Assembly: GCA_026391195.1 (NCBI GenBank)
Contig: JAPLEI010000100.1
Location: forward strand, 22,256-86,255
Reading direction: 5' to 3'
DNA: 64,000 nt
Source: Bacteroidota bacterium
GTDB taxonomy: Bacteria; Bacteroidota; Bacteroidia; Chitinophagales; Chitinophagaceae
Below are positions 48,945-60,028 of this stretch, piece after piece. Both the position numbers and the translations under genes were made by a program. A model generated the notes under the pieces. It was not told the origin of the DNA, made no database searches, and worked only from the letters and a program-made list of their open reading frames with translations. Position 1 is the stretch's first letter. Each line of letters opens with the position of its first letter.

Positions 48945-49018
48945 TCCTCCTTAGCTCAGTTGGTTAGAGCATCTGACTGTTAATCAGAGGGTCGTCTGTT
49001 CAAGTCAGACAGGGGGAG
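48945..49018 (+). tRNA. tRNA-Asn (GTT)
   Basis: A 74-base tRNA gene. Acceptor arms TCCTCCT and AGGGGGA pair with one G-T, discriminator G. D arm AGCTCAGTTGGTTAGAGC; anticodon stem TCTGA/TCAGA with loop CTGTTAA, anticodon GTT; T arm GTCTG/CAGAC with TTCAAGT loop. CCA is not encoded. It forms the left border of the repeat array: the sequence of its 3' end and the bases directly behind it recur several times downstream. Confidence 0.97.
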
Positions 49019-49132
49019 CAAAACCAGTGTGAGAGCGAGTGTGGGTGTGGGAAATTTTTCCTACACTGATTTTACTTCACACTCAAACTCGAACTCACTC
49101 TACTTAAAGCCGGGATTTTATCTCGGCTTTTT
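49011..49132 (+). repeat. Array repeat copy 1, fused to the tRNA-Asn 3' end
   Basis: Starts in the tRNA acceptor arm and continues with AAAACCAGTGTGAGAGCGAG. It then has an inverted repeat (AAACCAGTGT against ACACTGATTT) around a GTGTGGGAAATTTTTCC core, the conserved tail CACTCTACTTAAAGCC, and an intrinsic terminator (AAGCCGGGA, loop, TCTCGGCTT, T-run, about 49105-49132) that probably ends the tRNA transcript. This is the shortest full form; it lacks the GCGCACAGG hairpin present in copies 2-4. Confidence 0.8.
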
Positions 49133-49152
49133 AATTGCTACTATTGGAAGGT

Positions 49153-49330
49153 AGCTGCATCTTTCGTCGGTAAGGGGAGCGAAATCAGTGTGAGAGCGAG
49201 ATTGAGTGTGGGAAAATCTCCTACACTGATTTTTCTTCGCTCTCAAATGCTCCAGAGGCGCACAGGCTCAAACCTTGTGCGCTGCAAGCGTATCACTCTA
49301 CTTAAAGCCCCGCTATAATCGGGGCTTTTT
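49153..49330 (+). repeat. Array repeat copy 2
   Basis: Begins AGCTGCATCTTTCGTC and AAGGGGAGCGAAATCAGTGT, which repeats the tRNA 3' end and its flank. Perfect 10-base inverted repeat AAATCAGTGT/ACACTGATTT. An added hairpin module (GCGCACAGG, loop, CCTTGTGCGC) is followed by the conserved tail TATCACTCTACTTAAAGC and an intrinsic terminator (AAAGCCCCG, loop CTATAAT, CGGGGCTTTTT, 49303-49330). Directly behind lies a further partial core at 49335-49378. Confidence 0.8.
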
Positions 49331-49334
49331 AATT

Positions 49335-49378
49335 CTACAACTGGAAGGAAGCAATAGCTTTTGTCAATAAGGAGATTA
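49335..49378 (+). repeat. Partial array core ahead of the HicAB module
   Basis: TACAACTGGAAGGAAGCAAT and AGCTTTTGTCAATAAGGAG match the left end of the repeat (compare 49136-49176 and 53050-53089) but the inverted-repeat part is missing. It marks the left border of the HicAB cargo. Confidence 0.6.
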
Positions 49379-49398
49379 GACATAAAAGTAAAAGGGTT

Positions 49399-49466
49399 AT
49401 ACTTTTAAAGTATGATTTTTTTGTATATGATTATTTAAATTTTCGGAGAAAGTAATAAATATATTA
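49399..49466 (+). promoter_or_regulatory. Two palindromes ahead of hicA, likely operators
   Basis: ATACTTTTAAAGTAT (49399-49413) has 7-base arms and a 1-base centre; TAATAAATATATTA (49453-49466) has 5-base arms and overlaps the likely promoter, with TACCTTTA at 49465-49472 as a -7-like box. Autorepression by HicB is usual for the family; binding here is inference. Confidence 0.5.
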
Positions 49467-49476
49467 CCTTTACTAG

Positions 49477-49662
49477 ATGAAATCCAGCGAACTTGTTCGA
49501 CTACTTAAAAAGGATGGTTGGTTTGTCATAAGGCAAACAGGAAGCCACATGATAATGGAGCATCCATCTAAAAAAGGACAGATAGTTTGCCCTTATCATG
49601 GCAGTCAAGAAGTCGGAAAGGGATTGGAAAAGAAAATTAAAAAAGACGCAGGCATTAAATAA
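49477..49662 (+). CDS. hicA: HicA-family mRNA interferase toxin
   Basis: A 61-residue toxin of the HicA/YcfA family, which cleaves mRNA on ribosomes. The pattern MKSSELVRLLKKDGW, RQTGSHMIMEHP with the catalytic histidine in GSH, and the final GKGLEKKIKKDAGI is complete and of normal length. The antitoxin gene follows after 8 bases. It is the first cargo module of the array, flanked on both sides by array repeats. Confidence 0.92.
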   Translation: MKSSELVRLLKKDGWFVIRQTGSHMIMEHPSKKGQIVCPYHGSQEVGKGLEKKIKKDAGIK

Positions 49663-49670
49663 AAATTTTT

Positions 49671-50048
49671 ATGAAAATTGAAATGATAGTTGAAAAAACA
49701 AAAACTGGCTATTCAGCCTATGCTGAAAAATATCCCGTTTATACAGTTGGGAAATCCTTGGATGAACTTAAAAATAAAATTATTGAAGCGCTCAATCTTT
49801 ATTTTGAGAAAGAGGGCACAAACATCACTGAAAAAGATTTAAAAATCAAGTTAGATCTACCTCATTTTTTTGAGTTTTATAAAGTGATCAATGCAAAAGC
49901 CTTATCAGAAAGAATCGGCATGAACCAAAGCCTTCTTGCTCAATATATAAAAGGAAATAAAAAACCATCTACAACCCAAACTCAAAGAATTTTAAAGGGA
50001 GTACAACAGATAGGCAGCGAGTTAGCGGCGATCCGTTTTTTACTTTAA
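49671..50048 (+). CDS. hicB: HicB-family antitoxin with HTH domain
   Basis: A 125-residue antitoxin. The N-terminal HicB domain is a partly degraded RNase H fold (MIVEKTKTGYSAYAEKYPVY, TVGKSLDELKNKIIEALNLY). The C-terminal half is an HTH_3-like DNA-binding domain (ALSERIGMNQSLLAQYIKGN, KKPSTTQTQRILKGVQQIG). It should bind HicA and repress the operon through the palindromes upstream. It is complete. Confidence 0.9.
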   Translation: MKIEMIVEKTKTGYSAYAEKYPVYTVGKSLDELKNKIIEALNLYFEKEGTNITEKDLKIKLDLPHFFEFYKVINAKALSERIGMNQSLLAQYIKGNKKPSTTQTQRILKGVQQIGSELAAIRFLL

Positions 50049-50130
50049 TGATTTAAGATTATTCCGGTTCGTTCAAATTTATATGAAGAAGATTCAGTTG
50101 ATATTTTTATTTATTACTCACATAGAGAAA

Positions 50131-50343
50131 TAGCAGCAGCATTTGTCAATAAGTAAAACGAAAATCAGCGTGAGTGCCTGTGCGGCTTTGGATTATGGGT
50201 GTGGGATATTTTCCTACACTGATTTTACTTCACATGCACCAAAGGCGCACAGGCTCAAATGCTCCAGAGGCGCACAGGCCTTACTTGTGCGCTGGAAGCG
50301 TATCACTCTACTTAAATTCCTGCTATAATCGGGGCTTTTTTTA
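50131..50343 (+). repeat. Array repeat copy 3, with damaged terminator
   Basis: Starts TAGCAGCAGCATTTGTCAAT; inverted repeat AAATCAGCGT/ACACTGATTT has one mismatch. The unit that holds GGCGCACAGGCTCAAATGC is present twice in tandem (50237-50275 region), then ACTTGTGCGCTGGAAGCG and the conserved tail TATCACTCTACTTAAA. The left arm of the terminator is altered (ATTCCTGCTATAATCGGGGC), so the stem can no longer form fully. It separates the HicAB from the HigBA module. Confidence 0.75.
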
Positions 50344-50409
50344 TTTCAATTTTAATGTTACACAGTTACAGGTGGTGGCAAAAATGGTGATATAATCAAA
50401 TTTGAAAGA

Positions 50410-50766
50410 TTACGCTAAGAGTACATCAGCAGGAATACTCAGTTCTCTGTGAAACAACTTTGCCAGTTCCAGTGTAAGGGGCTTACGCTTGTTGAGGAGT
50501 GCAGATACATACCCTTTGCTACCTACCTTCCCTACCAAATCCTTATTTTTTAATCCCAGGTCTTGCATCTTTAATTTGATGGTTTCAATCGGATCTGGTA
50601 CAGGTATCGGATAATGCAGATCTTCATATTGTTTAATCAGTAAAAGCGCGACCTGCACTTTTTCTCCCTTTGGGCTATCTGGTTTTACTTTTTTATCCAA
50701 TTGTTTATCAACCCAGTCAAGATATTCTTGGTATTGTTTTTTTGTTCTAATGATTTTGAGCTCCAT
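50410..50766 (-). CDS. higA: HigA-family antitoxin (XRE-type HTH)
   Basis: A 118-residue antitoxin. The C-terminal helix-turn-helix reads ETIKLKMQDLGLKNKDLVGK and VSALLNKRKPLTLELAKLFH, typical of HigA proteins; the N-terminal half is helical and likely contacts the toxin. Second gene of the pair; it begins two bases after the toxin stop. It probably represses the promoter through the palindrome at 51099-51117. Confidence 0.9.
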   Translation of the reverse strand: MELKIIRTKKQYQEYLDWVDKQLDKKVKPDSPKGEKVQVALLLIKQYEDLHYPIPVPDPIETIKLKMQDLGLKNKDLVGKVGSKGYVSALLNKRKPLTLELAKLFHRELSIPADVLLA

Positions 50767-50768
50767 AA

Positions 50769-51080
50769 TTATTTCTTTGAGTGTTGAATAGTAGTAACAT
50801 CAATTTTATCATACTCGGCATGTGTACCAAACCATTTGATCTGAACAACTTTGAAATCAAAAACAATTCGTACCACCAACCGGTATTTATTACCCATTAT
50901 ATTAAATACCACACAATTATCTGCCACAACCCTTACATTACCATATACCCTTTTTAACTCATTAAAGTTTTTAAAATCACTGTTTACCAACTCGTGATAC
51001 CATTCCTGTAAAGCTGTTGAAGCGGCAGGATATTTTTTACAATAATCCAACAAGGTCTTTCTGGTAATGATGCTAAACAC
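50769..51080 (-). CDS. higB: HigB-family mRNA interferase toxin
   Basis: A 103-residue toxin of the HigB (RelE-superfamily) group. The landmark NIMGNKYRLVVRIVF and VVQIKWFGTHAEYDKID is complete, so the ribosome-dependent RNase should be active. It starts with GTG at 51080. Toxin-first order with the antitoxin behind is normal for HigBA. The module is encoded on the strand opposite to the neighbouring cargo modules. Confidence 0.9.
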   Translation of the reverse strand: MFSIITRKTLLDYCKKYPAASTALQEWYHELVNSDFKNFNELKRVYGNVRVVADNCVVFNIMGNKYRLVVRIVFDFKVVQIKWFGTHAEYDKIDVTTIQHSKK

Positions 51081-51098
51081 AAGGCAAAGATGATAAAA

Positions 51099-51117
51099 TG
51101 TTTTCTATTAGAAAACA
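51099..51117 (-). promoter_or_regulatory. 19-base palindromic operator of higBA
   Basis: TGTTTTCTATTAGAAAACA has perfect 9-base arms around one central base. It lies 19-37 bases upstream of the GTG of higB, in the position of the promoter, and is the obvious HigA target. Confidence 0.7.
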
Positions 51118-51271
51118 ATTCCCGAAGCGTACTATTATTAAATTATTTTTACACAACCTCGTGTTTTAGTCACTTTACCATACAATTGCTCACCGTTACA
51201 ATCAACCTCGTGCAATTTTTGAACGAACTATTTTATTGATTTACAGATAATTAATATTTCCGACAGTCTAT
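51118..51271. other. Noncoding stretch between higBA and repeat copy 4
   Basis: About 150 AT-rich bases with no supported gene or strong structure. Together with 51272-51667 (repeat sequence) and 51878-52127 (noncoding, AT-rich) it makes the about 1 kb between higB and the MqsR-like remnant almost free of intact genes. Confidence 0.5.
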
Positions 51272-51469
51272 TATAGATGCATTTTTCGTCAATAAGGGGA
51301 GCAAAATCAGTGTGAGTGTGGGATTGGGTGTGGGAAATTTTCCTACACTGATTTTTCTTCGCATGCTCCAGAGGCGCACAGGCTCAAATGCACCAAAGGC
51401 GCACAAGCCTTACTTGTGCGCTGCAAGCGTATCACTCTAAGCGCATTCATTTTCGGATGCGCTTTTTTA
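51272..51469 (+). repeat. Array repeat copy 4
   Basis: Starts TATAGATGCATTTTTCGTC and AATAAGGGGAGCAAAATCAG; perfect inverted repeat AAATCAGTGT/ACACTGATTT. Two tandem copies of the GGCGCACAGGCTCAAATGC unit, then ACTTGTGCGCTGCAAGCG and TATCACTCTAA. The terminator differs from copies 1-3: AAGCGCATTC, loop, GGATGCGCTTTTTT (51438-51468). Confidence 0.8.
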
Positions 51470-51625
51470 TTAAATTAAATGCAAAATAGCTACAGCTTGC
51501 GTCAATAACGCAAAATGATAATCAAGCAGTTACGAGTTTATAGCCGTAGCTGCTTTTTTATTTGCACCAAAATTTGCACCACAAAGTCGGGGAGCTCGCA
51601 ATTGAAATGTGCGGGAATTAATTTT
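51434..51625 (+). repeat. Long direct repeat, copy A (partner at 58262-58440)
   Basis: The terminator of copy 4 and the following about 150 bases match 58262-58440. Shared blocks are GCGCATTCATTT, AAAATAGCT with GCAT/ACAG, GATAATCAAGCAGTTACGAG, and two adjacent TTTGCACC words (ATTTGCACCAAAATTTGCACC). The TTTGCACC pair could be recombinase binding sites; that is inference. It is followed by an HTH gene remnant, as is the partner copy after intervening cargo. Confidence 0.7.
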
Positions 51626-51667
51626 AAGAAATTCATCCAGCTTCCCATTCTTTTATAATTTTTAGCA

Positions 51668-51877
51668 ATGACTCCAAGTGAAATATTATTAAATGGCCTT
51701 TCCGTTTAGCAGTTGATCGAACTATTGAGACCTAAAATCAAAGAAGAAATTCGACAAGCGCAATTAGAACAGCCATAGAAACTGCTGTCACAAGCGGAGA
51801 CCTGTAAACTTTTTAAAGCGGCTATTACAAGAGCTACCCCGACTTCATTGACTAAACAGGGCCTTTTACAAGAGTAA
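51668..51877 (+). pseudogene. Decayed excisionase-like helix-turn-helix gene with two in-frame TAG codons
   Basis: A 69-codon frame starts ATG (MTPSEILLNGLSV) and ends TAA. It is interrupted only by TAG at 51707-51709 and 51776-51778. The second part (LIELLRPKIKEEIRQAQLEQ, LLSQAETCKLFKAAI, TPTSLTKQGLLQE) matches the layout of the small HTH_17 proteins on Bacteroidota mobile elements, where a short helix precedes a MerR-like helix-turn-helix. The normal final strand (YRIG...) is missing, so it is also truncated. A second remnant of the same family lies at 59237-59352. Confidence 0.6.
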
Positions 51878-52127
51878 TAAATCCTCTTCTTTTGTATCTT
51901 TTATCTGCAGCAGTTCCAGGCTGATGGATCACAGAATTCCCCCCGCAACGCCAATGCGAGATTGTTGTGCGAAATTTATCAGCTCTCTTATATTCAATCA
52001 TAACCAATTGATTTTCATACGATATTAATAAATTAGCCTTAATTCAGGCTCTTTTCATTTGCTAAAATAATTCCCAATCATTAGGAATTTTAAAAAATAC
52101 CCTTACCTTTAAAAAAGCAAGTAACTA

Positions 52128-52508
52128 ATGAAACAATAGCGATAAACAGAAGAGAATGTTTCCATTATACAAGACTTTTTAGATGAAACTAAGAAGCGAA
52201 TATCTGATGGTGTCGAAATTATTTTCACAAAAAAAGCTGGCTCTGAATTGGAAGATTTAGCTCTGGTTTACGATATCGAAGTGAGTGATATTGAAGCAGC
52301 TATATCAAATCTGACTACTGAAAATTATTATAGAGGAATTGATCCTTCTTGGAGCGCCGATTTTAATGTATGTGCATTTTGCACAAATATTGCAGAAGCT
52401 AAAATTGAAATTTATTTAAAATATAGGTTAGAGGTGAACGGTTTTCAGATTTTACTTTTCTCTAATCATGAACCAGATTTTCCGATGAAACAGCCTTTTA
52501 AAAATTAA
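52128..52508 (+). pseudogene. MqsR-like toxin gene with two stop codons close to the start
   Basis: The frame starts ATG-AAA-CAA, then has TAG (52137-52139) and, two codons later, TAA (52143-52145), and is open from there to 52508. The open part reads TEENVSIIQDFLDETKKRIS onward and ends with the MqsR-like IEIYLKYRLEVNGFQILLFS and HEPDFPMKQPFKN. Both stops would be Gln codons if C replaced T. Translation could start at the TTG at 52248, but this removes about 40 residues of the fold. So the toxin is probably dead or poorly made, while its antitoxin partner (4 bases downstream) is intact. The family call is moderate. Confidence 0.6.
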
Positions 52509-52512
52509 TATT

Positions 52513-53010
52513 ATGGAAACCAAGAAAGTATTAACAAGAGAAAATATTCCTACCAATGAAATTAGTGGTATGACTGAAAAAACTTTTAGAGGAATTAAAT
52601 TAAAGTACCCTGAAGTTTATTATCTTGATCATAATGTAGATGAAGAAACCGGAAAAATCAATAGAAGTGTAAAGGTTAAACATTACACTAAAAATCAAAT
52701 AGAACGAAATATTAAAGCACTTAAATCTGCTTATCTTATTGCAAAAGGAGCAGCAGACCCGAGTGAAATCATTGATTTTAGAAATAAGTATAAAATATCT
52801 GCTTCTATTTTTAGTATTATTTTAGGGTTTAGCAAAAACACGATTTCTAATATTGAAAACGAAGGGATGACATCCTTATCTACTGGCAGATTAATAAAAG
52901 TATGTTTAGATAATAAGGAAATCGTTTGTAAATATATTCAATTGTGTGACGCAATTGAACAAAGTAAAAAGGAAGAGTTGTCAAAAAGACTAATGGAAGA
53001 AACTATTTAA
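52513..53010 (+). CDS. Antitoxin-like HTH protein (MqsA/YgiT-like region)
   Basis: A 165-residue protein starting METKKVLTRENIPTNEISGM. The C-terminal half is a helix-turn-helix (KYKISASIFSIILGFSKNTI, SNIENEGMTSLSTGRLIKVC) as in MqsA-type antitoxins; the N-terminal half lacks the zinc-binding cysteines of classical MqsA and looks like a toxin-binding region (IKLKYPEVYYLDHNVDEETG). It follows the MqsR-like frame by 4 bases and is complete, so it may survive as an orphan antitoxin or regulator. A part-copy of the array repeat follows. Confidence 0.6.
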   Translation: METKKVLTRENIPTNEISGMTEKTFRGIKLKYPEVYYLDHNVDEETGKINRSVKVKHYTKNQIERNIKALKSAYLIAKGAADPSEIIDFRNKYKISASIFSIILGFSKNTISNIENEGMTSLSTGRLIKVCLDNKEIVCKYIQLCDAIEQSKKEELSKRLMEETI

Positions 53011-53040
53011 ATACTAATTCAGGCCAGGATTTAAGCTCGG

Positions 53041-53124
53041 CTTTTTTATTTCTACAATTGGAAGATAGCTGCAGGTTTTGTCAATAAGAGTAGCATGCAA
53101 GACCGGCTTTATGCCGGTCTTTTT
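53041..53124 (+). repeat. Partial array core followed by an intrinsic terminator
   Basis: TCTACAATTGGAAGATAGCT and GCAGGTTTTGTCAATAAGAG repeat the left end of the array repeat (compare 49136-49176). It is followed not by the AAATCAGTGT inverted repeat but by a different terminator, AAGACCGGC, loop TTTAT, GCCGGTCTTTTT (53099-53124). Confidence 0.65.
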
Positions 53125-53345
53125 CATTTTCTCGTATGCATGCCCCGACAACGCAGAGCGTTCGTCGGTGGTCCAACATGGGGAGCACTGAAAATCAATG
53201 GATTACAGAAATATAGCTCTTTTTTTATTAAGCCCTTCCGAAACAATTCCGAAACAAACGGCAAAATAAACCTGTTTTTAAGGGTTGCTGGTGGGCTGAA
53301 GGAAGCATCTATTTATAGCTACTTTAACTAATTACAGGCATTATT
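53125..53345 (+). other. Noncoding region between array core and HsdR remnant
   Basis: Holds a bulged hairpin (CCGACAACGC against GCGTTCGTCGG, 53148-53171) and, at 53180-53190, TGGGGAGCACTG, which again resembles the tRNA-Asn 3' end. I see no supported gene. Confidence 0.4.
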
Positions 53346-53897
53346 CAATCGGTTATCGGTTCGATGTATGGATCAGGAACAATTTGAATAATAGTTTGAG
53401 TGGCTTGTTCGGTTTCAGTTTCCAGTTGCAAGGGTATCAGCTTTGAAGCCAATCGGTAAAATTCGGTCGGGGTTCGCCTTCACCAGGCTACAAGGATCAC
53501 CGTCTTCTCTTCCTGAAATAGTTCAATTGCTTCAGCGAAGTGTTCCCTTATTGCACTGGTAACACGGTTCTCGGCAACTTTTGTATTTTTCAGTAAAAGG
53601 TGCAATACCTGTTCATTGGCGTCCATCAAATCTGTCGGTAAATCATAATCAGCTGCTGAATTTGCGCCGGTTGATCTTTCAGAAATGGATTGATTTTTAC
53701 CAGCCTTTCTGCTAGTAAATCTTTAAGTATTACTTCCCGCAGCGATTTAGGAAGGGATGTCGAGGTTTCGTTGACCTGATTAGCTTCGTTGAGCTCTTTC
53801 AACTCCCAGCTAATTCCTTGAGTTGATTAATAAAAGGGCTCTCTACTTTGGTGTACTCGTCTATACGGAGTTCCTTATTTTTTTGCAATTCGTACAT
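53346..53897 (-). pseudogene. Type I restriction enzyme HsdR N-terminal remnant, frameshifted
   Basis: Starts MYELQKNKELRIDEYTKVES, the typical N-terminus of HsdR subunits in Bacteroidota, and continues PFINQLKEL. A one-base loss in the expected GGCTGG codons (near 53822) shifts the frame; the next frame gives WELKELNEANQVNETSTSLP, then AERLVKINPFLKDQPAQIQQ. A further shift leads to DLPTDLMDANEQVLHLLLKN, then the match to HsdR ends and the rest (EFYRLASKLIPLQLETETEQ) is unlike HsdR and resembles the tail of a phage terminase small subunit. The nuclease and motor domains are missing. About 180 codons remain of an enzyme of normally about 1000. Confidence 0.65.
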
Positions 53898-53911
53898 AAC
53901 GTTTTTATTTA

Positions 53912-54300
53912 GCGCCGGAGTTTACCGGTTAATCCCGGCGCTGTCCGATAAAATAACGGACATGTCCGTTATCCTGTCCGATATGCCCGGTTTTCCGGCG
54001 GTTTTATCGCCGTAAATACCCGGGGAACCGCCCTAAACCGCAGCTTCTGCCGGCGGCTGGCGGCAAAATATCGGACATTGAGCTGGTAGCCTTCCGAAAT
54101 ACCGGCATTTTCCCGCCAACGGCGGCAGTTTTATCGGACACGTCCGATATTTTGTCCGATATATCCGGCTTTTCGGCGGTTTTATCGCCGCTGGCGGCGG
54201 CGGCGCCAAAATATAGGACACACTTGCGGCAGCCTGACCGATATCGCCGACATTATCCGGCTGATAGCGGCTAATATTACCGCCATGGCGGTGCCGATTC
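53912..54300. repeat. GC-rich palindromic repeat block with many TGTCCGATA words
   Basis: A 390-base block much richer in GC than its surroundings. It opens with a hairpin (GCGCCGG/CCGGCGC, 53912-53941). TGTCCGATA or its complement occurs at least six times, sometimes head to head. Two units of about 180 bases follow each other: GGACATGTCCGTT and CCGGCGGTTTTATCGCCG near 53953-54013 recur near 54137-54193 (GGACACGTCCGAT, CGGCGGTTTTATCGCCG). It lies directly behind the stop of the deaminase fusion gene. It may be a nonautonomous mobile element or a site array; it is not a coding sequence in my view. Confidence 0.65.
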
Positions 54301-54301
54301 A

Positions 54302-55786
54302 TCATTTGTTCTTTATAAAATACCTTGTCCCTTTCTTTTCACCCTCCCTGGCTAATACTTCATCCTTCACCAATTTATTCAAATGCCTTCCTGCTGTCTT
54401 TGGAACTAAATTAAAGTGCATAGCATAATCCCCGGTCGAAATCTTGCCCTTCTGCCTCACAAAAGCAACTACCGCTTCATCAGATAAAGCAGGGGCAACC
54501 GGCTTAACTTCCGTTGCTTTCTGCTTCTTCCGATAAACGGTTATTACAAAATAGCCTTCTTCCATCCTGAAATCCGGATCTGGTAACTCTTCATTATTCT
54601 TAAAGGCTTTCAGTTCCTTCATACCAATTCCCCGTTCTTCAACAACCCCCGATTTAAAAAAGACATATGCCAGTTTCGGATTACGACTAATGGAGGGCAC
54701 CTGGAATGCACGGAACCTTTCAATATCTATAATTGGTTCACCGGGGCTCCATATTTCTATTTTATCCTTTGAAGCGACAATCCGGATTTGCTTATTCTGA
54801 ATGGTATAATCCCGGTGAACAATTGCATTCACTATTAATTCACGCAGCAACTTCTTAGGAATATCAACTATCTCTTCCCGATGAAAATTATCACGATTAA
54901 TCTCAGGCAGAAAAGTTAAATCGAGTAAACTTTCTGCCTTATCTGGCATCAACAAGATTGGGCCTTCAATATCTTTTATTTTTGCATCACCAACAGATTG
55001 TTCTATTGTAAATTTTATCCTTGCTTGTTCAAAAGCAGACTGCGGATTACGACCCAACACCAATAACCCAAGGCCTGTCGGCTTTACAGTATTTGAATGG
55101 TCGGGTTTGTATAACATGTCCAACTGCAACAAGAATTTAAAAAATCCCTCTGACCCGACCTTAACACTCAAACCCATCCGATCAATCAATTCCTGCTGTG
55201 CTTCTTCTGAAAAATCTGTTAAATCGAAATTATTCATGTGCTGTGTCAATACAGTTACAGTAGGAACAAGTGTTTTATGGTGTTCCTCTTTCGCTCTTAT
55301 TTCAGCATCATCAAAAAACTTCTTGTTTTCATTATAAATAATATCATACAGGTCGCCATCGAAATAATCCACTTCAATTTTATTGGCAATTAAGAAATCT
55401 CTGCCTTCACCTGCCACGGAAGGGTCAGGATCAATTGCGCCAATATATACTTTACCTATACGGGCATTGGTTATCCTTTCGGCACAGGAAAGCTTGGGAT
55501 GGTTTCTTGCACCAGGAGCACAAGGCTCCAGTGTTGCAAATACCACAAGACCGGTAAGGTTACTGCCCCAGTGGTGACGTTCAATTGCAGTGAACTCTGC
55601 ATGATCGCCAATGCGTAATTCGCCACGATGTGATTTACCAACCAATTTTCCATCTGGTGTTGCAATCACAGCGCCTACTTTTGGATTAGGTTTACCATCA
55701 GACCTGTTGGGGTCGGGAACCGACTTTCGCATTTCCTCGATGGCCATTACCATCAACTCCCTTTGTGTATATTTTTTTGTTGCCAT
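54302..55786 (-). CDS. RibD-like deaminase fused to GHKL (RecG-C type) ATPase and winged helix
   Basis: A 494-residue cytoplasmic protein with three parts. Residues 1-150: a nucleotide-deaminase fold with zinc ligands H62-A-E64 (GDHAEFTAIE), C89 in TLEPC and C101 in LSCAERI, the RibD-type spacing, and proton-shuttle E64. Residues 160-415: a divergent GHKL ATPase of the kind found at the C-terminus of Schlafen/AlbA_2 regulators, with RELIVNAIVHRDY (E316, N320), SPGEPI and ERGIGMKEL. Residues 430-494: a winged helix (KISTGDYAMHFNLVPKTAGR, HLNKLVKDEVLAREG). So the deaminase stands where the AlbA_2 domain normally is. It may be a phage-sensing effector that alters nucleotides or a nucleotide-responsive regulator. 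The DUF1524 remnant lies 10 bases upstream; the GC-rich repeat block directly downstream. Confidence 0.78.
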   Translation of the reverse strand: MATKKYTQRELMVMAIEEMRKSVPDPNRSDGKPNPKVGAVIATPDGKLVGKSHRGELRIGDHAEFTAIERHHWGSNLTGLVVFATLEPCAPGARNHPKLSCAERITNARIGKVYIGAIDPDPSVAGEGRDFLIANKIEVDYFDGDLYDIIYNENKKFFDDAEIRAKEEHHKTLVPTVTVLTQHMNNFDLTDFSEEAQQELIDRMGLSVKVGSEGFFKFLLQLDMLYKPDHSNTVKPTGLGLLVLGRNPQSAFEQARIKFTIEQSVGDAKIKDIEGPILLMPDKAESLLDLTFLPEINRDNFHREEIVDIPKKLLRELIVNAIVHRDYTIQNKQIRIVASKDKIEIWSPGEPIIDIERFRAFQVPSISRNPKLAYVFFKSGVVEERGIGMKELKAFKNNEELPDPDFRMEEGYFVITVYRKKQKATEVKPVAPALSDEAVVAFVRQKGKISTGDYAMHFNLVPKTAGRHLNKLVKDEVLAREGEKKGTRYFIKNK

Positions 55787-55796
55787 GGTAACTTAT

Positions 55797-56185
55797 TTAA
55801 AGGCCATAGCCTTGTTTAATTTTATTCAATACCTCCGGGTGGCTCTTTTTAATATCATTCAGGTTCCATGTAGAGTATTGGTTGTATATCCTCCCAAAAT
55901 TGCTGAATAATTCAACGTGACTTTTAAAATACATTTCCTTTTTTTCGGCATAAGCTTTATTGCTTCGCGCTGATTTTTTTCTTCTTGAAATAAGCACCAG
56001 GTTCTGCATTTTATTTGTCCATTCTGATTCTTCTAAATCTGTAAAATCAATCTTTCTTTGGCTAGCATCCTGCGGTGTTTGTGGTAGTTCATGTTCTATG
56101 CTTATTGTTTCAGGCATTTCTAACTTGGTGGTGTAACCATGATAAAACAAGTCCAGTTTCAGCAAAACAAATTGTCAGCTCCCCT
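55797..56185 (-). pseudogene. C-terminal fragment of a DUF262/DUF1524 (GmrSD-like) restriction protein
   Basis: The open frame gives about 122 residues that start inside a protein (FVLLKLDLFYHGYTTKLEMP) and continue ISIEHELPQTPQ, WTNKMQNLVLISRRKKSARS and KKEMYFKSHVELFSNFGRIY, which is the DUF1524 HNH-type nuclease end of GmrSD-like type IV restriction proteins. The HNH histidine lies in IEHELPQ. There is no proper start, and stop codons lie directly upstream, so the DUF262 part is gone. It ends 10 bases ahead of the deaminase fusion start; read-through into that gene is possible. Confidence 0.7.
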
Positions 56186-56380
56186 AAAATCCGCCATATT
56201 CAAAAGTACAATCAATTTATTGCTTTTTAAGGGGCAAGTGTTAGGTAGATCCAACATAAATCCAGTTGTTATGATAAAGCATTTAGAAAATGAATACTGA
56301 TTGTCCCCAACTTAGTTCCCTCAAAATCAAACGAACTAATTCATTGATAATCAACAAATTTAAAACTGAGTAACCCGGAA
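56186..56380. other. Noncoding stretch ahead of repeat copy 5
   Basis: About 195 bases without a supported gene; the right border of the restriction-remnant module. It is followed by an array repeat (56381-56483) and the leader of the serine hydrolase gene. Confidence 0.5.
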
Positions 56381-56483
56381 TAGCTGCATCTTTCGCCAAT
56401 AAGGCGAGCGAAAATCAGTGCGAGCGCCTGTGCACTGCAAGCGTATCACTCTACTTAAAGCGCCGCTATAATCGGGGCTTTTT
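56381..56483 (+). repeat. Array repeat copy 5, short form
   Basis: TAGCTGCATCTTTCGCCAAT and AAGGCGAGCGAAAATCAGTG at the left end, then GTGCACTGCAAGCGTATCAC and TCTACTTAAAGC at the right end; the middle of the unit (right inverted-repeat arm and hairpin module) is deleted. Terminator AAAGCGCCG, loop CTATAAT, CGGGGCTTTTT, with one mismatch (56456-56483). Confidence 0.75.
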
Positions 56484-56534
56484 CTTTGTCCATCAGTGCG
56501 CTAGGGGGGGTGTATCTTTTCTTATATTCACCAT

Positions 56535-57629
56535 ATGAAAACATTTCTTTTTGTTCTAACCTTCTTACTGTATGGAAATTTATATTCCCAAAGTACGCTG
56601 AGTCCAAAAGAACCTGATAATAAGACGGTAAACATATTGAGCAAATACCCTAAAGAAATTGCCGAGATCATTTATTCAAAAACCAAAGATTTGCCAAATA
56701 ATACGCAACTTTCCATAGCCTTAATTGAAAATGGGGAAACCTATTATTATGGAATTATAATAGAAAATGACACCTTAAAACCAGCCGAAAATCAAAAGAA
56801 AATATTTGAAATAGGCTCAATCACAAAAGTATTCACATCAACTATTTTAGCGTCACTTGTTGAGAATAAAAAAATAAACTTGACTGACGAAATAAATTCT
56901 TATTACCCTTTTGCTTTCAAAGATAACATCAAGATAAATTTTGAGAGTTTAGCTAACCATACATCAGGGTTACCACGTTTGCCAGAAAACCTAGACTTAT
57001 CAAATCAAGTTAATCCATATAAAAATTTTGGCAAACCCGAAATTGAGCAGTATCTGAAAAATTTATTGAAACTTGGAAACAAAACATATTCATATTCAAA
57101 CTTGGGTGTAGGACTTTTAGGTTATACACTCGGTTTATCTCAAAAAACAAATTTTCAAAGCCTTTTACAAAAGAAAGTTTTTGACAAATACAAAATGAAA
57201 AATTCATTTACAAGTTCCCAAAATTTGGGGAATAATCTTATTAAAGGATTGAATAAAAAGGGAGAAGTTGTATCTAACTGGGATTTTGATGTTCTATTTG
57301 GAGCAGGAGGAATATTATCTACAACAGAAGATTTGGCACTTTTCGTAAATGCACAATTCAATCCTAAAAACAAAGAGCTCGAATTGACAAGAAAAACAAC
57401 TTCTGAAATTAAAGGAAATACGAAAATTGGTTTAGGCTGGCACAAATTAGAATCCGAAAATGGAAAAGGATTCCTTTGGCATAATGGAGGAACAGGCGGA
57501 TATTCATCTTCAATAATATTTAAAATTTCAGATAAAACGGCAGTTATTATCTTATCAAATGTATCAGGTATTAATGGCCAAATTGACGCTATATCCTACG
57601 AATTGATAAATAAAACGAATAAAAATTAA
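56535..57629 (+). CDS. Secreted beta-lactamase-fold serine hydrolase (class C / DD-peptidase family)
   Basis: A 364-residue exported protein, signal peptide MKTFLFVLTFLLYGNLYSQ. The three active-site motifs are in order: SITK (Ser-x-x-Lys), YSN (in YSYSNLGVG) and HNGG (in place of KTG, as in many esterase or peptidase members). It may be a DD-peptidase, an esterase or a peptide hydrolase; a true beta-lactamase role is not shown, and HNGG makes a D-alanyl or esterase activity as likely. AT-rich composition sets it apart from the core genes and suggests transfer. It is a single-gene cargo module behind array copy 5. Confidence 0.85.
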   Translation: MKTFLFVLTFLLYGNLYSQSTLSPKEPDNKTVNILSKYPKEIAEIIYSKTKDLPNNTQLSIALIENGETYYYGIIIENDTLKPAENQKKIFEIGSITKVFTSTILASLVENKKINLTDEINSYYPFAFKDNIKINFESLANHTSGLPRLPENLDLSNQVNPYKNFGKPEIEQYLKNLLKLGNKTYSYSNLGVGLLGYTLGLSQKTNFQSLLQKKVFDKYKMKNSFTSSQNLGNNLIKGLNKKGEVVSNWDFDVLFGAGGILSTTEDLALFVNAQFNPKNKELELTRKTTSEIKGNTKIGLGWHKLESENGKGFLWHNGGTGGYSSSIIFKISDKTAVIILSNVSGINGQIDAISYELINKTNKN

Positions 57630-57712
57630 CGAGCAAGATTAGTTATTTAAGATTGTGTGCGATGGCTTGTCAAATACTTTCCTGATAGTCACAAACTCAA
57701 TCATCGCATTTT

Positions 57713-57750
57713 GGCTGCATCTTTCTAGGAAAAGAGGAGCAAAATAAATG
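57713..57750 (+). repeat. Partial array core
   Basis: GGCTGCATCTTTCTAGGAAA followed by AGAGGAGCAAAATAAATG; matches the left end of the array repeat with several changes. No inverted repeat or terminator follows. It separates the serine hydrolase from the CDGSH gene. Confidence 0.5.
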
Positions 57751-57852
57751 TTTTACCGGTTTTTCTCTTAATTCCGATAATGCCAACAGTAAAATTAACA
57801 CCAGCCTGAATAAGAATTAAACAGCGTGAAAGTTCCCTAAAGTGATAAACTG

Positions 57853-58092
57853 CTACAATGTTTTATGCGAGCCATCACAAAACCCTGGATTTTTTGTATG
57901 CTTACAATTACACAAGTAGGCTGTTTTAGTTTCTTCAGCTACAAATACTTTTGGAACAAAAGAAGAACCTTTATGTGAACCATCACAAAATGGTTGATTA
58001 GTTGATTTGCCGCAAGAACACCATGCGTAAGTTTTACCGGCTTCTAATTGAACCGGTAGCGGAGTTTTTCCTGCAATTGTTGGGTTTTCCAT
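57853..58092 (-). CDS. Double CDGSH iron-sulfur protein
   Basis: A 79-residue protein with two CDGSH-type [2Fe-2S] motifs: CSCGKSTNQPFCDGSHKG and CNCKHTKNPGFCDGSHK, each with three Cys and one His ligand. Such tandem CDGSH proteins are small cytosolic redox or cluster-transfer proteins. It starts at 58092 (MENPTIAGKTPLPVQLEAGK). It lies between array elements on the minus strand, without partner genes. An inverted repeat (GGGTAAG/CTTACCC, 58132-58160) lies 40 bases upstream of the start. Confidence 0.9.
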   Translation of the reverse strand: MENPTIAGKTPLPVQLEAGKTYAWCSCGKSTNQPFCDGSHKGSSFVPKVFVAEETKTAYLCNCKHTKNPGFCDGSHKTL

Positions 58093-58131
58093 TTTTTTAT
58101 TGTGAAATTAAGTAATGTTTTCGATTAATTC

Positions 58132-58160
58132 GGGTAAGACTATGATGCCTTTTCTTACCC
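58132..58160 (-). promoter_or_regulatory. Inverted repeat upstream of the CDGSH gene
   Basis: Perfect 7-base arms GGGTAAG and CTTACCC with a 15-base spacer, 40 bases upstream of the start codon. Could be an operator or a hairpin in the leader. Confidence 0.4.
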
Positions 58161-58261
58161 ATGAGTTTGTAAATGCAAATAGCACTCATCAGTTTGGTGC
58201 CCATGCTTACGAAGCTGTAAAGAAAAGGAAGTTTTAAATTTTCTGATTAAGACAAAGTTAT

Positions 58262-58440
58262 AGCGCATTCATTTCTGGATGCCCTTTTTAATTACAGCAA
58301 ACCCAAAATAGCTGCATCTTAGACAACAAAGCAAGGTGATAATCAAGCAGTTACGAGTTTATACCCTATTTGCACCAAAATTTGCACCAAAAAATCGGGG
58401 TGGTTGGCTAGTAAAATGTCGGGGAATTATTTTCATCCGG
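58262..58440 (+). repeat. Long direct repeat, copy B (partner at 51434-51625)
   Basis: Begins with a terminator (AGCGCATTC, loop, GGATGCCCTTTTT, 58262-58289), then the array core AAAATAGCTGCATCTT, GATAATCAAGCAGTTACGAG and the two TTTGCACC words (58369-58389), then TCGGGG and TGTCGGGGAATTATTTT. The order and spacing match copy A. The HTH remnant that follows copy A directly is found here about 800 bases downstream, with other cargo between. Confidence 0.7.
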
Positions 58441-58637
58441 CTAATTGGCATCCTGCTATTTTTTACATGTAGATATAATTGCTAGTCAGACTTCATTGAA
58501 TAGGCTGTTTGTTGAGGTGTTGTTTGAATTTTTCAGGATCTTCAAATTCAAAATATTTCAGAAAGCATCAGAAGCAACAAACATCTGTTGTAATATTATG
58601 GTAGGATTAGCTACTTATACAAAGTAAATACATCATT

Positions 58638-58850
58638 ATGGACAAATTTGAATACAAAATACTGGATGTTTCCAGAACGCAGATTAAGAAGGAAGGATTT
58701 CAGTTAGAGTTAATGGAAAAGCTTAACGAACTCGGAGCCAAAGGTTGGGAGCTAATCACCATCGAGGGTATGACTGAAGGTTCAGCATTATTCCGTATAA
58801 GTGAGACGACGGATGTGCTGTTTGTTTTTAAAAGGAAGGTGAGTGGGTGA
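58638..58850 (+). CDS. DUF4177 small protein
   Basis: A 70-residue protein, MDKFEYKILDVSRTQIKKEG, then LNELGAKGWELITIEGMTEG, the hallmark of DUF4177, ending VLFVFKRKV. Complete and of normal length. Function unknown; DUF4177 proteins are small single-domain proteins often found near mobile DNA. It is a single-gene cargo module between two array repeats. Confidence 0.8.
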   Translation: MDKFEYKILDVSRTQIKKEGFQLELMEKLNELGAKGWELITIEGMTEGSALFRISETTDVLFVFKRKVSG

Positions 58851-58919
58851 GCGTAGTATAAGAAACGATGTTTTGAAATTTTCTGATATAGACAAATCTA
58901 TTCAACGAATAAGAAAACA

Positions 58920-59042
58920 TTATTTATCAGTAATGAGAGCAAAATCACCCTGAGTGTGTGCGCCAGTGGCGAAACAAAAGCTAAACACGTGGACTAAAAG
59001 CCTACCACTCTACTTTAGGCCACGATTTCTCGGCTTTTTTAT
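58920..59042 (+). repeat. Array repeat, degenerate copy 6
   Basis: TTATCAGTAATGAGAGCAAA and ATCACCCTGAGTGTG at the left, then the conserved tail CCACTCTACTTTAGGCCACG and a terminator (GGCC... TCGGCTTTTTT). The inverted repeat around the centre is lost. The tail makes it a member of the same family. Confidence 0.6.
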
Positions 59043-59091
59043 ATCTAAAAGTGGTAATTTACTTCTGCATTTTTAAACCAAATAACAAGTT

Positions 59092-59247
59092 ATGACTTCC
59101 GAATTAATTTTTAGTTTTTTAATGATTGCAACATACTTATACCTTGATTTTCTTGGGTATAAATTTATGTCCCAAAGAAAAGGGCTAATTCAAATGTTTA
59201 TAACAAAGTATAAAGCAAGAATTAAAATTAAACATACAGCAAGCTAA
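59092..59247 (+). CDS. Small putative membrane protein, 51 residues
   Basis: The frame reads MTSELIFSFLMIATYLYLDF, then LGYKFMSQRKGLIQMF and a basic tail (YKARIKIKHTAS). One membrane helix at the N-terminus and a positively charged C-terminus resemble small membrane toxins or leader proteins. It has no visible partner. Its last codons overlap the HTH remnant in another frame. It could be a chance frame. Confidence 0.3.
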   Translation: MTSELIFSFLMIATYLYLDFLGYKFMSQRKGLIQMFITKYKARIKIKHTAS

Positions 59248-59352
59248 ATTGCTGTCGTGGGCGGAGACTTTTAAACTATATAAAGCCGCTATATAAACAC
59301 TATGTTGGCTTCCTGGAATAAAAAAGGGATTCTTTAAGAGCATCGAATTAGG
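59237..59352 (+). pseudogene. Second decayed excisionase-like HTH remnant
   Basis: In frame, QQAKLLSWAETFKLYKAAI, then TAA, then TLCWLPGIKKGFFKSIELG. It corresponds to LLSQAETCKLFKAAI at 51779 onward in the other remnant, and at DNA level shares GGCGGAGAC and AAACT, TTTAAAGC-type blocks. The N-terminal part is missing. Same family as the remnant at 51668-51877, in the same orientation. Confidence 0.5.
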
Positions 59353-59545
59353 GGGGGCGTTTTATCTTCAGTCCGAGATCTTGGCATGTAAGAAATAGTT
59401 GATGAAATATCGGACTACATATTAAAATATAATAATATTATTCTTACATTTAAGGAATGCCTTATTCTTTTTTGCATATGTATCCGACTTTGAGTGCATA
59501 AGCGATAATGTGTGGCGAGTATAAATAAGTTAGTTGCAATAATAT
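59353..59545. other. Noncoding region before the lipoprotein gene
   Basis: About 190 AT-rich bases. No repeat core, terminator or gene that I can support. Confidence 0.5.
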
Positions 59546-60028
59546 ATGACTGTCTATTCCCGAATTATTTTACTCTCCATATTTTTATCTTGCGCCTGCT
59601 CGTTCGTTGATAAGACGACACCTAATGTTGAATATATAGTTTATGGTATTTATTGTGGAGAATGTTACGGTCATTGTGCAACAATGTTTAAAATTGACAA
59701 TACACATTTACTAATTGACACTACAGACTCATATTTTAAGAATCAGCCTCAAGGAGAAAAAGTAACTTTCACAGGAGATTCTTTAAACAGAGAGCAATTC
59801 CAAAAAGCCATCATTCTAAAGAGTACAATTCCTAAATTATTGCTTGACTCTAAAGACAGAAAATTTGGAAACCCAGACGAATATGATCAATGTGGTATTT
59901 TTATACAATTTAAGGTTGCTGATAAACTAAAGACATTTCATATTGACACTAATTTAAAAGAAGTCCCCGCTGAAATCCGGAGTTATGCTCAATCAATTAT
60001 GGCATTATCAAGATTTAGACCGCTATAA
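59546..60028 (+). CDS. Hypothetical lipoprotein
   Basis: A 160-residue predicted lipoprotein: MTVYSRIILLSIFLSC gives a short signal with lipobox FLSC. The mature part has a cysteine cluster (YCGECYGHCATMF) and is otherwise mixed alpha/beta. No family recognised; the CxxCxxxC pattern could be structural or bind a metal. AT-rich composition like the cargo modules. No array repeat is seen on its right side. Confidence 0.6.
   Translation: MTVYSRIILLSIFLSCACSFVDKTTPNVEYIVYGIYCGECYGHCATMFKIDNTHLLIDTTDSYFKNQPQGEKVTFTGDSLNREQFQKAIILKSTIPKLLLDSKDRKFGNPDEYDQCGIFIQFKVADKLKTFHIDTNLKEVPAEIRSYAQSIMALSRFRPL

Follow-up and report, generated by a model that had tools for sequence, protein, structure and literature searches.

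A zinc deaminase fused to a GHKL domain and a winged helix, a probable antiviral effector associated with restriction operons

Our analyses identify a protein of 494 amino acids that joins a RibD-type zinc deaminase, a GHKL domain of the HATPase_c_4 type and a winged helix (wHTH), and that is, judging from its fold, its zinc site and the restriction-operon context, probably an undescribed antiviral effector. The reading that we favour, with modest confidence, is that of a mobile effector accessory to defence by restriction, in which the deaminase would take the place of the Schlafen nuclease and be switched by the GHKL and wHTH parts. This reading is built on the fold, the conserved zinc site, the presence of the GHKL domain and winged helix, the interchange of N-terminal domains on a common scaffold, the embedding of the genes in restriction operons and the horizontal spread of the family. 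No description of a deaminase-GHKL-wHTH fusion was found in the literature searched, which did not extend to preprints and most subscription journals.

Domain architecture and predicted structure

The open reading frame begins with ATG and is intact within the window, by which we mean the whole stretch of 64,000 nucleotides that was analysed (Table 1). Pfam assigned residues 9-116 of the product to dCMP_cyt_deam_1 (PF00383, 6.8e-11), residues 332-416 to HATPase_c_4 (PF13749, 5.4e-15) and, in a weak match below the cut-off (0.003), residues 438-480 to HTH_DeoR. The GHKL domain displays an N-box (E316/N320), S347-P-G349, E383 and G388 as landmarks.

Table 1. Position of the deaminase-GHKL gene, its domains and residues, and the adjoining restriction gene in the window
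Feature	Coordinates	Strand	Evidence
Whole gene, RibD-type deaminase + GHKL ATPase + winged helix	54302..55786	-	ORF, Pfam, 81-protein alignment, purifying selection
RibD-type zinc deaminase domain, ~residues 1-165	55292..55786	-	Pfam, Foldseek to RibD, model pLDDT mostly >90
H62-A63-E64, zinc ligand and catalytic glutamate motif	55595..55603	-	Invariant 81/81; aligned to RibD HAE
C89 zinc ligand, TLEPC motif	55520..55522	-	Invariant 81/81; aligned to RibD
C101 zinc ligand	55484..55486	-	Invariant 81/81; aligned to RibD
Linker and middle region, ~residues 166-300	54887..55291	-	SIR2-PNTD match (PADLOC), Foldseek to DIP2311
GHKL (HATPase_c_4) domain, ~residues 301-420	54527..54886	-	Pfam PF13749, invariant residues
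C-terminal winged helix, ~residues 433-494	54305..54490	-	Weak HTH_DeoR, wHTH secondary structure in model, Foldseek
GmrSD-type restriction enzyme remnant, C-terminal domain only	55797..56165	-	GmrSD_C PF07510, 1.1e-13

Structure prediction from the single sequence gave a pLDDT of 31 and that model was not used, whereas the AlphaFold2 model built on an alignment of 81 sequences reached a mean pLDDT of 89.9. In Foldseek comparisons with the latter, the N-terminal part superposed on RibD (2b3z) at 2.2 A over 155 columns, with 32% identity, and also matched human dCMP deaminase (2w4l, 7e-7), while the portion beyond the N-terminus matched DIP2311 (3lmm, 8e-12), a Schlafen-like GHKL protein. The C-terminus of the model has the secondary structure of a winged helix, and wHTH proteins were matched there. 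This region also matched a Zalpha domain (4kmf, E 0.03), which was set aside as a similarity common to wHTH folds in general; by eye, the residues that contact Z-DNA are missing.

The Pfam, model and Foldseek results together bear out the three-domain anatomy of the original prediction, which had also named H62-A-E64, C89 and C101 as the zinc site. These residues are found at exactly those positions, and in the sequence alignment they coincide with the HAE, C and C of RibD, in keeping with a putative zinc centre of the RibD type.

Divergence from the riboflavin enzyme

Kinship with RibD raises the question of whether the protein could be a riboflavin-pathway deaminase, either a true RibD or its second copy. 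The deaminase fold and the HAE...PC...C zinc motif are indeed those of RibD, and the NCBIfam RibD model matches residues 31-140, but scores just 60 bits there, far short of the cut-off of 156, and no C-terminal reductase domain is found in the 494-residue protein. A separate RibD above the curated cut-off is encoded in the source genome. Moreover, positions that we take to contact the substrate in RibD are not retained: the Asn of NPxVG is variable (S in 40, D in 14 and P in 12 of 81 sequences), and the GxH and CxHxGKTPPC features are replaced in the family by RGExR and CxxxxRxxPKxxC-type motifs. The original prediction had regarded a defence role as unlikely should homologues lie consistently beside riboflavin genes; they adjoin restriction genes, and no riboflavin genes occur among their recurrent neighbours. 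A riboflavin role is thus already contradicted by the genomic RibD, the missing reductase, the changed loop motifs and the neighbourhood, and we consider it highly improbable.

The deaminase-GHKL family can also be told apart from ordinary RibD by profile. Among 396 genomes of the phylum, eight, including the source genome, matched a profile of the deaminase part at E ~1e-73 or better, with no other match at 1e-24 beyond those eight, and because of this gap the family is cleanly separate from ordinary RibD. In the same genomes, seven more homologues of full length were found, with 38-45% identity to the window protein.

Exchange of the N-terminal domain on a common scaffold

The original prediction held that related proteins carry an AlbA_2 domain in place of the deaminase. 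This proved correct, since 13 of the 19 nearest GHKL-wHTH relatives of the C-terminal part have SLFN_AlbA_2, a count which supports the view that N-terminal domains are swapped on a GHKL-wHTH scaffold of the Schlafen type. DUF4062 was matched in four of the 19; in some GHKL-wHTH relatives (L124-L143) it stands where others have AlbA_2, and may represent a further effector. The window protein has no match to SLFN_AlbA_2 (PF04326), its N-terminus being occupied by the deaminase, and it possesses the other features of the bacterial Schlafen proteins, that is, HATPase_c_4, recognized by both Pfam and the fold match to 3lmm, and the C-terminal winged helix.

Several known systems can be compared with this architecture. 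A survey of BREX loci published in 2026 described Schlafen RNases with a minimal histidine kinase and a wHTH as fusion partners (PMC12839542). Such SLFN_AlbA_2, HATPase_c_4 and wHTH proteins (PMC12839542; DIP2311, 3lmm) resemble the window protein in the GHKL domain, the wHTH, the size and the place in restriction-modification (RM) operons, and differ from it in carrying an AlbA_2/Schlafen domain where it has a RibD-type zinc deaminase. PADLOC found no known defence family matching over the whole 494 residues, and SIR2-PNTD proteins matched residues 136-399 (3.7e-16). The latter are built on a related scaffold, but SIR2 replaces the deaminase and they are linked to prokaryotic Argonautes; the linker and middle region is common to Schlafen-type and SIR2-type relatives. 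In AvcD-type proteins, a deaminase is paired with a P-loop domain and an RNA antitoxin. The window protein differs in being a RibD-type domain fused to GHKL-wHTH, and no P-loop kinase-like domain was found in it by Pfam, PADLOC or fold matches. What it would share with AvcD and with the dCTP/dCMP deaminase antiphage systems (PMC10511110) is the use of a cytidine-deaminase-fold enzyme as defence effector, a role proposed here. Taken together, these comparisons suggest that the GHKL-wHTH scaffold common in bacterial Schlafen proteins serves as a receiver of general use, to which different effectors can be fitted, namely AlbA_2, DUF4062, SIR2 and the deaminase.

Conservation and distribution of the family

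Of 267 relatives reported from GTDB genomes, the best 80 were aligned with the window protein to give the set of 81 sequences. These 80 are 36-70% identical to the window protein and match it over nearly the full length, except at contig ends. H62, E64, C89 and C101 are invariant in all 81 sequences, as are R54-G55, G60 and K98, which flank the zinc motif, and E316, N320, H324, R325, Y327, S347, G349, N369, E383 and G388 of the GHKL domain. In comparisons with the nearest relatives, pN (0.18-0.23) lies far under a pS of ~0.80, which is saturated, as expected for purifying selection.

The relatives span some nineteen bacterial and archaeal phyla, a spread in which some MAG contigs may be misbinned. 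Phyla are intermixed in the tree of the 81 proteins, where strongly supported branches force five changes for Planctomycetota and three for Ignavibacteriota, and archaea (Methanolobus) are placed among bacteria. The gene is absent from the 36 other genomes of the same genus that were searched. The mixed tree and this absence fit a mobile accessory gene of horizontal and patchy spread. As to its vehicle, no plasmid match covered 80% of the protein, and a phage home was rejected: the sole phage match with more than 80% coverage (L032) has an AlbA_2-like N-terminus, not a deaminase.

Deaminases of the same kind (YRGE...HAE) without the GHKL part were observed on viral or prophage contigs (L113:10001-10894, L114:4282-5316 and L115:9983-10804); they bear different extensions at the N- or C-terminus, for which Pfam gave no match. 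The one in L115 lies close to a C5 DNA methyltransferase, after genes reading as prophage lysis genes.

Genomic context

The genes neighbouring the 80 relatives were grouped blind to function, in single-linkage clusters that may contain strays, and identity was tested on representatives and on the nearest neighbours. The two largest clusters proved to be of the type I specificity/modification type (26 loci) and of the HsdR type (23 loci), and the identities obtained comprised Methylase_S, HSDR_N, SWI2_SNF2, EcoEI_R_C, N6_Mtase, GmrSD, HerA, OLD, YhcG and others. Linkage to type I RM or GmrSD genes is seen in 31 of the 76 non-redundant loci, and all 70 genes of these clusters are co-directional with the deaminase gene, compared with 467 of 694 other neighbours. 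Their share among neighbours declines with distance, from 21.5% in the first 500 bp through 12% (0.5-1.5 kb), 11% (1.5-3 kb), 6% (3-5 kb) and 2% (5-7.5 kb) to 0% (7.5-11 kb); a Fisher test of the first 500 bp against the genes beyond 5 kb gives p ~1e-11. Co-directional embedding among hsd genes is thus found across the family, most commonly in the order HsdM-HsdS-(accessory gene, e.g. GmrSD, HerA, OLD or YhcG)-deaminase-HsdR, and one locus (L068) has a type III-like arrangement, Res-deaminase-methylase. Flavobacterium luteum and Blastopirellula marina are examples of species whose homologue lies inside an RM operon. AlbA_2-type relatives in other genomes also lie among HsdM, HsdS and HsdR, in similar places of RM operons, and a single operon (L044:8882-16850) contains HsdS, the deaminase version, a gene of 195 aa, the SLFN_AlbA_2/HATPase_c_4 version (495 aa) and HsdR.

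In more than half of the loci, including those of the nearest relatives (L033, L035) and the window copy, no RM gene is present in the stretch examined, many contigs being short. The window copy is not embedded in a type I RM operon; a search of the window for HsdR, HsdM or HsdS remains found none. Its only adjoining restriction gene is the co-directional GmrSD_C remnant 10 bp upstream, so that the flanking restriction remnant of the original prediction is real: the C-terminal domain is well matched, and the N-terminal half is absent upstream of it in any frame. A relative on the sister branch (L037, 57% identical) has the order HsdR-HsdS-deaminase-GmrSD-HsdM. The defence setting proposed at the outset therefore gains strength from the relatives in restriction operons, beyond what could be seen from this sequence, whereas the neighbourhood in the window alone is weak evidence. 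Since several near relatives also lie outside RM operons, the deaminase-GHKL protein can probably act alone, without such an operon.

The stretch at 49000-60000 of the window has a G+C content of 29-38% over much of its length, compared with 43% for the first 48.5 kb, with the deaminase gene itself at 41%, and it may be an island assembled in several steps. Small gene pairs at 50410-51080 (minus strand) and 49671-50048 (plus strand) look like toxin-antitoxin genes of the HigBA and HicB kinds. In an empty-site comparison, the flanking gene chosen on the far side was absent from nearly all genomes of the genus.

A winged helix in the midst of RM operons could also belong to a transcriptional regulator of these operons, with the wHTH binding the promoter, the GHKL domain responding to a nucleotide and the deaminase fold acting as a ligand sensor or as destroyer of a small signal; Pfam names the DIP2311-like relatives transcriptional regulators. 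Nevertheless, the zinc ligands and the catalytic glutamate are invariant in the family, as expected of an enzyme, many copies lie outside RM operons, and the domains that take the N-terminal place in relatives, AlbA_2, DUF4062 and SIR2, are typical effectors. We therefore regard a purely regulatory role as unlikely.

Proposed mode of action

What the protein catalyses, on which class of substrate, on what trigger and with what effect on phages we infer as follows. As an effector, it would use its GHKL-wHTH part as sensor and switch, binding a nucleotide and a nucleic acid or partner, and would restrain the zinc deaminase at the N-terminus as long as no phage is present and the adjacent restriction system has not been overcome. 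The freed deaminase would then act on bases or nucleotides and thereby keep the phage from replicating, a response that is probably costly to the cell. Free pyrimidine nucleotides would be the simplest substrate, given the kinship with RibD and dCMP deaminase and the AvcD precedent (PMC10511110).

Alternatively, the deaminase might edit DNA or RNA instead of free nucleotides, its targets being either the foreign DNA on which the restriction complex acts, or tRNA or mRNA. Profile matches to TadA tRNA deaminases (5e-11), weak Pfam matches to Inv-AAD (AID/APOBEC) and the Schlafen domains of scaffold relatives, described as RNases (PMC12839542), point in this direction, and the wHTH could bring the deaminase to nucleic acid. 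However, the closest kin, RibD and dCMP deaminase, act on small substrates, and no uracil-DNA glycosylase or similar partner was found among the recurrent neighbours, which makes such editing a rather improbable option. A tighter coupling, in which type I/III restriction complexes would release the deaminase or guide it, and it would deaminate nucleotides or foreign nucleic acid, is conceivable, and we advance it only tentatively.

Conclusions

In the favoured reading, that of a mobile accessory effector, the deaminase and its GHKL-wHTH receiver would form a second line of defence beside restriction. Deamination tied to RM operons was not found described as a mode of defence in the literature searched; our results would connect restriction operons with the deamination of bases across some nineteen phyla.
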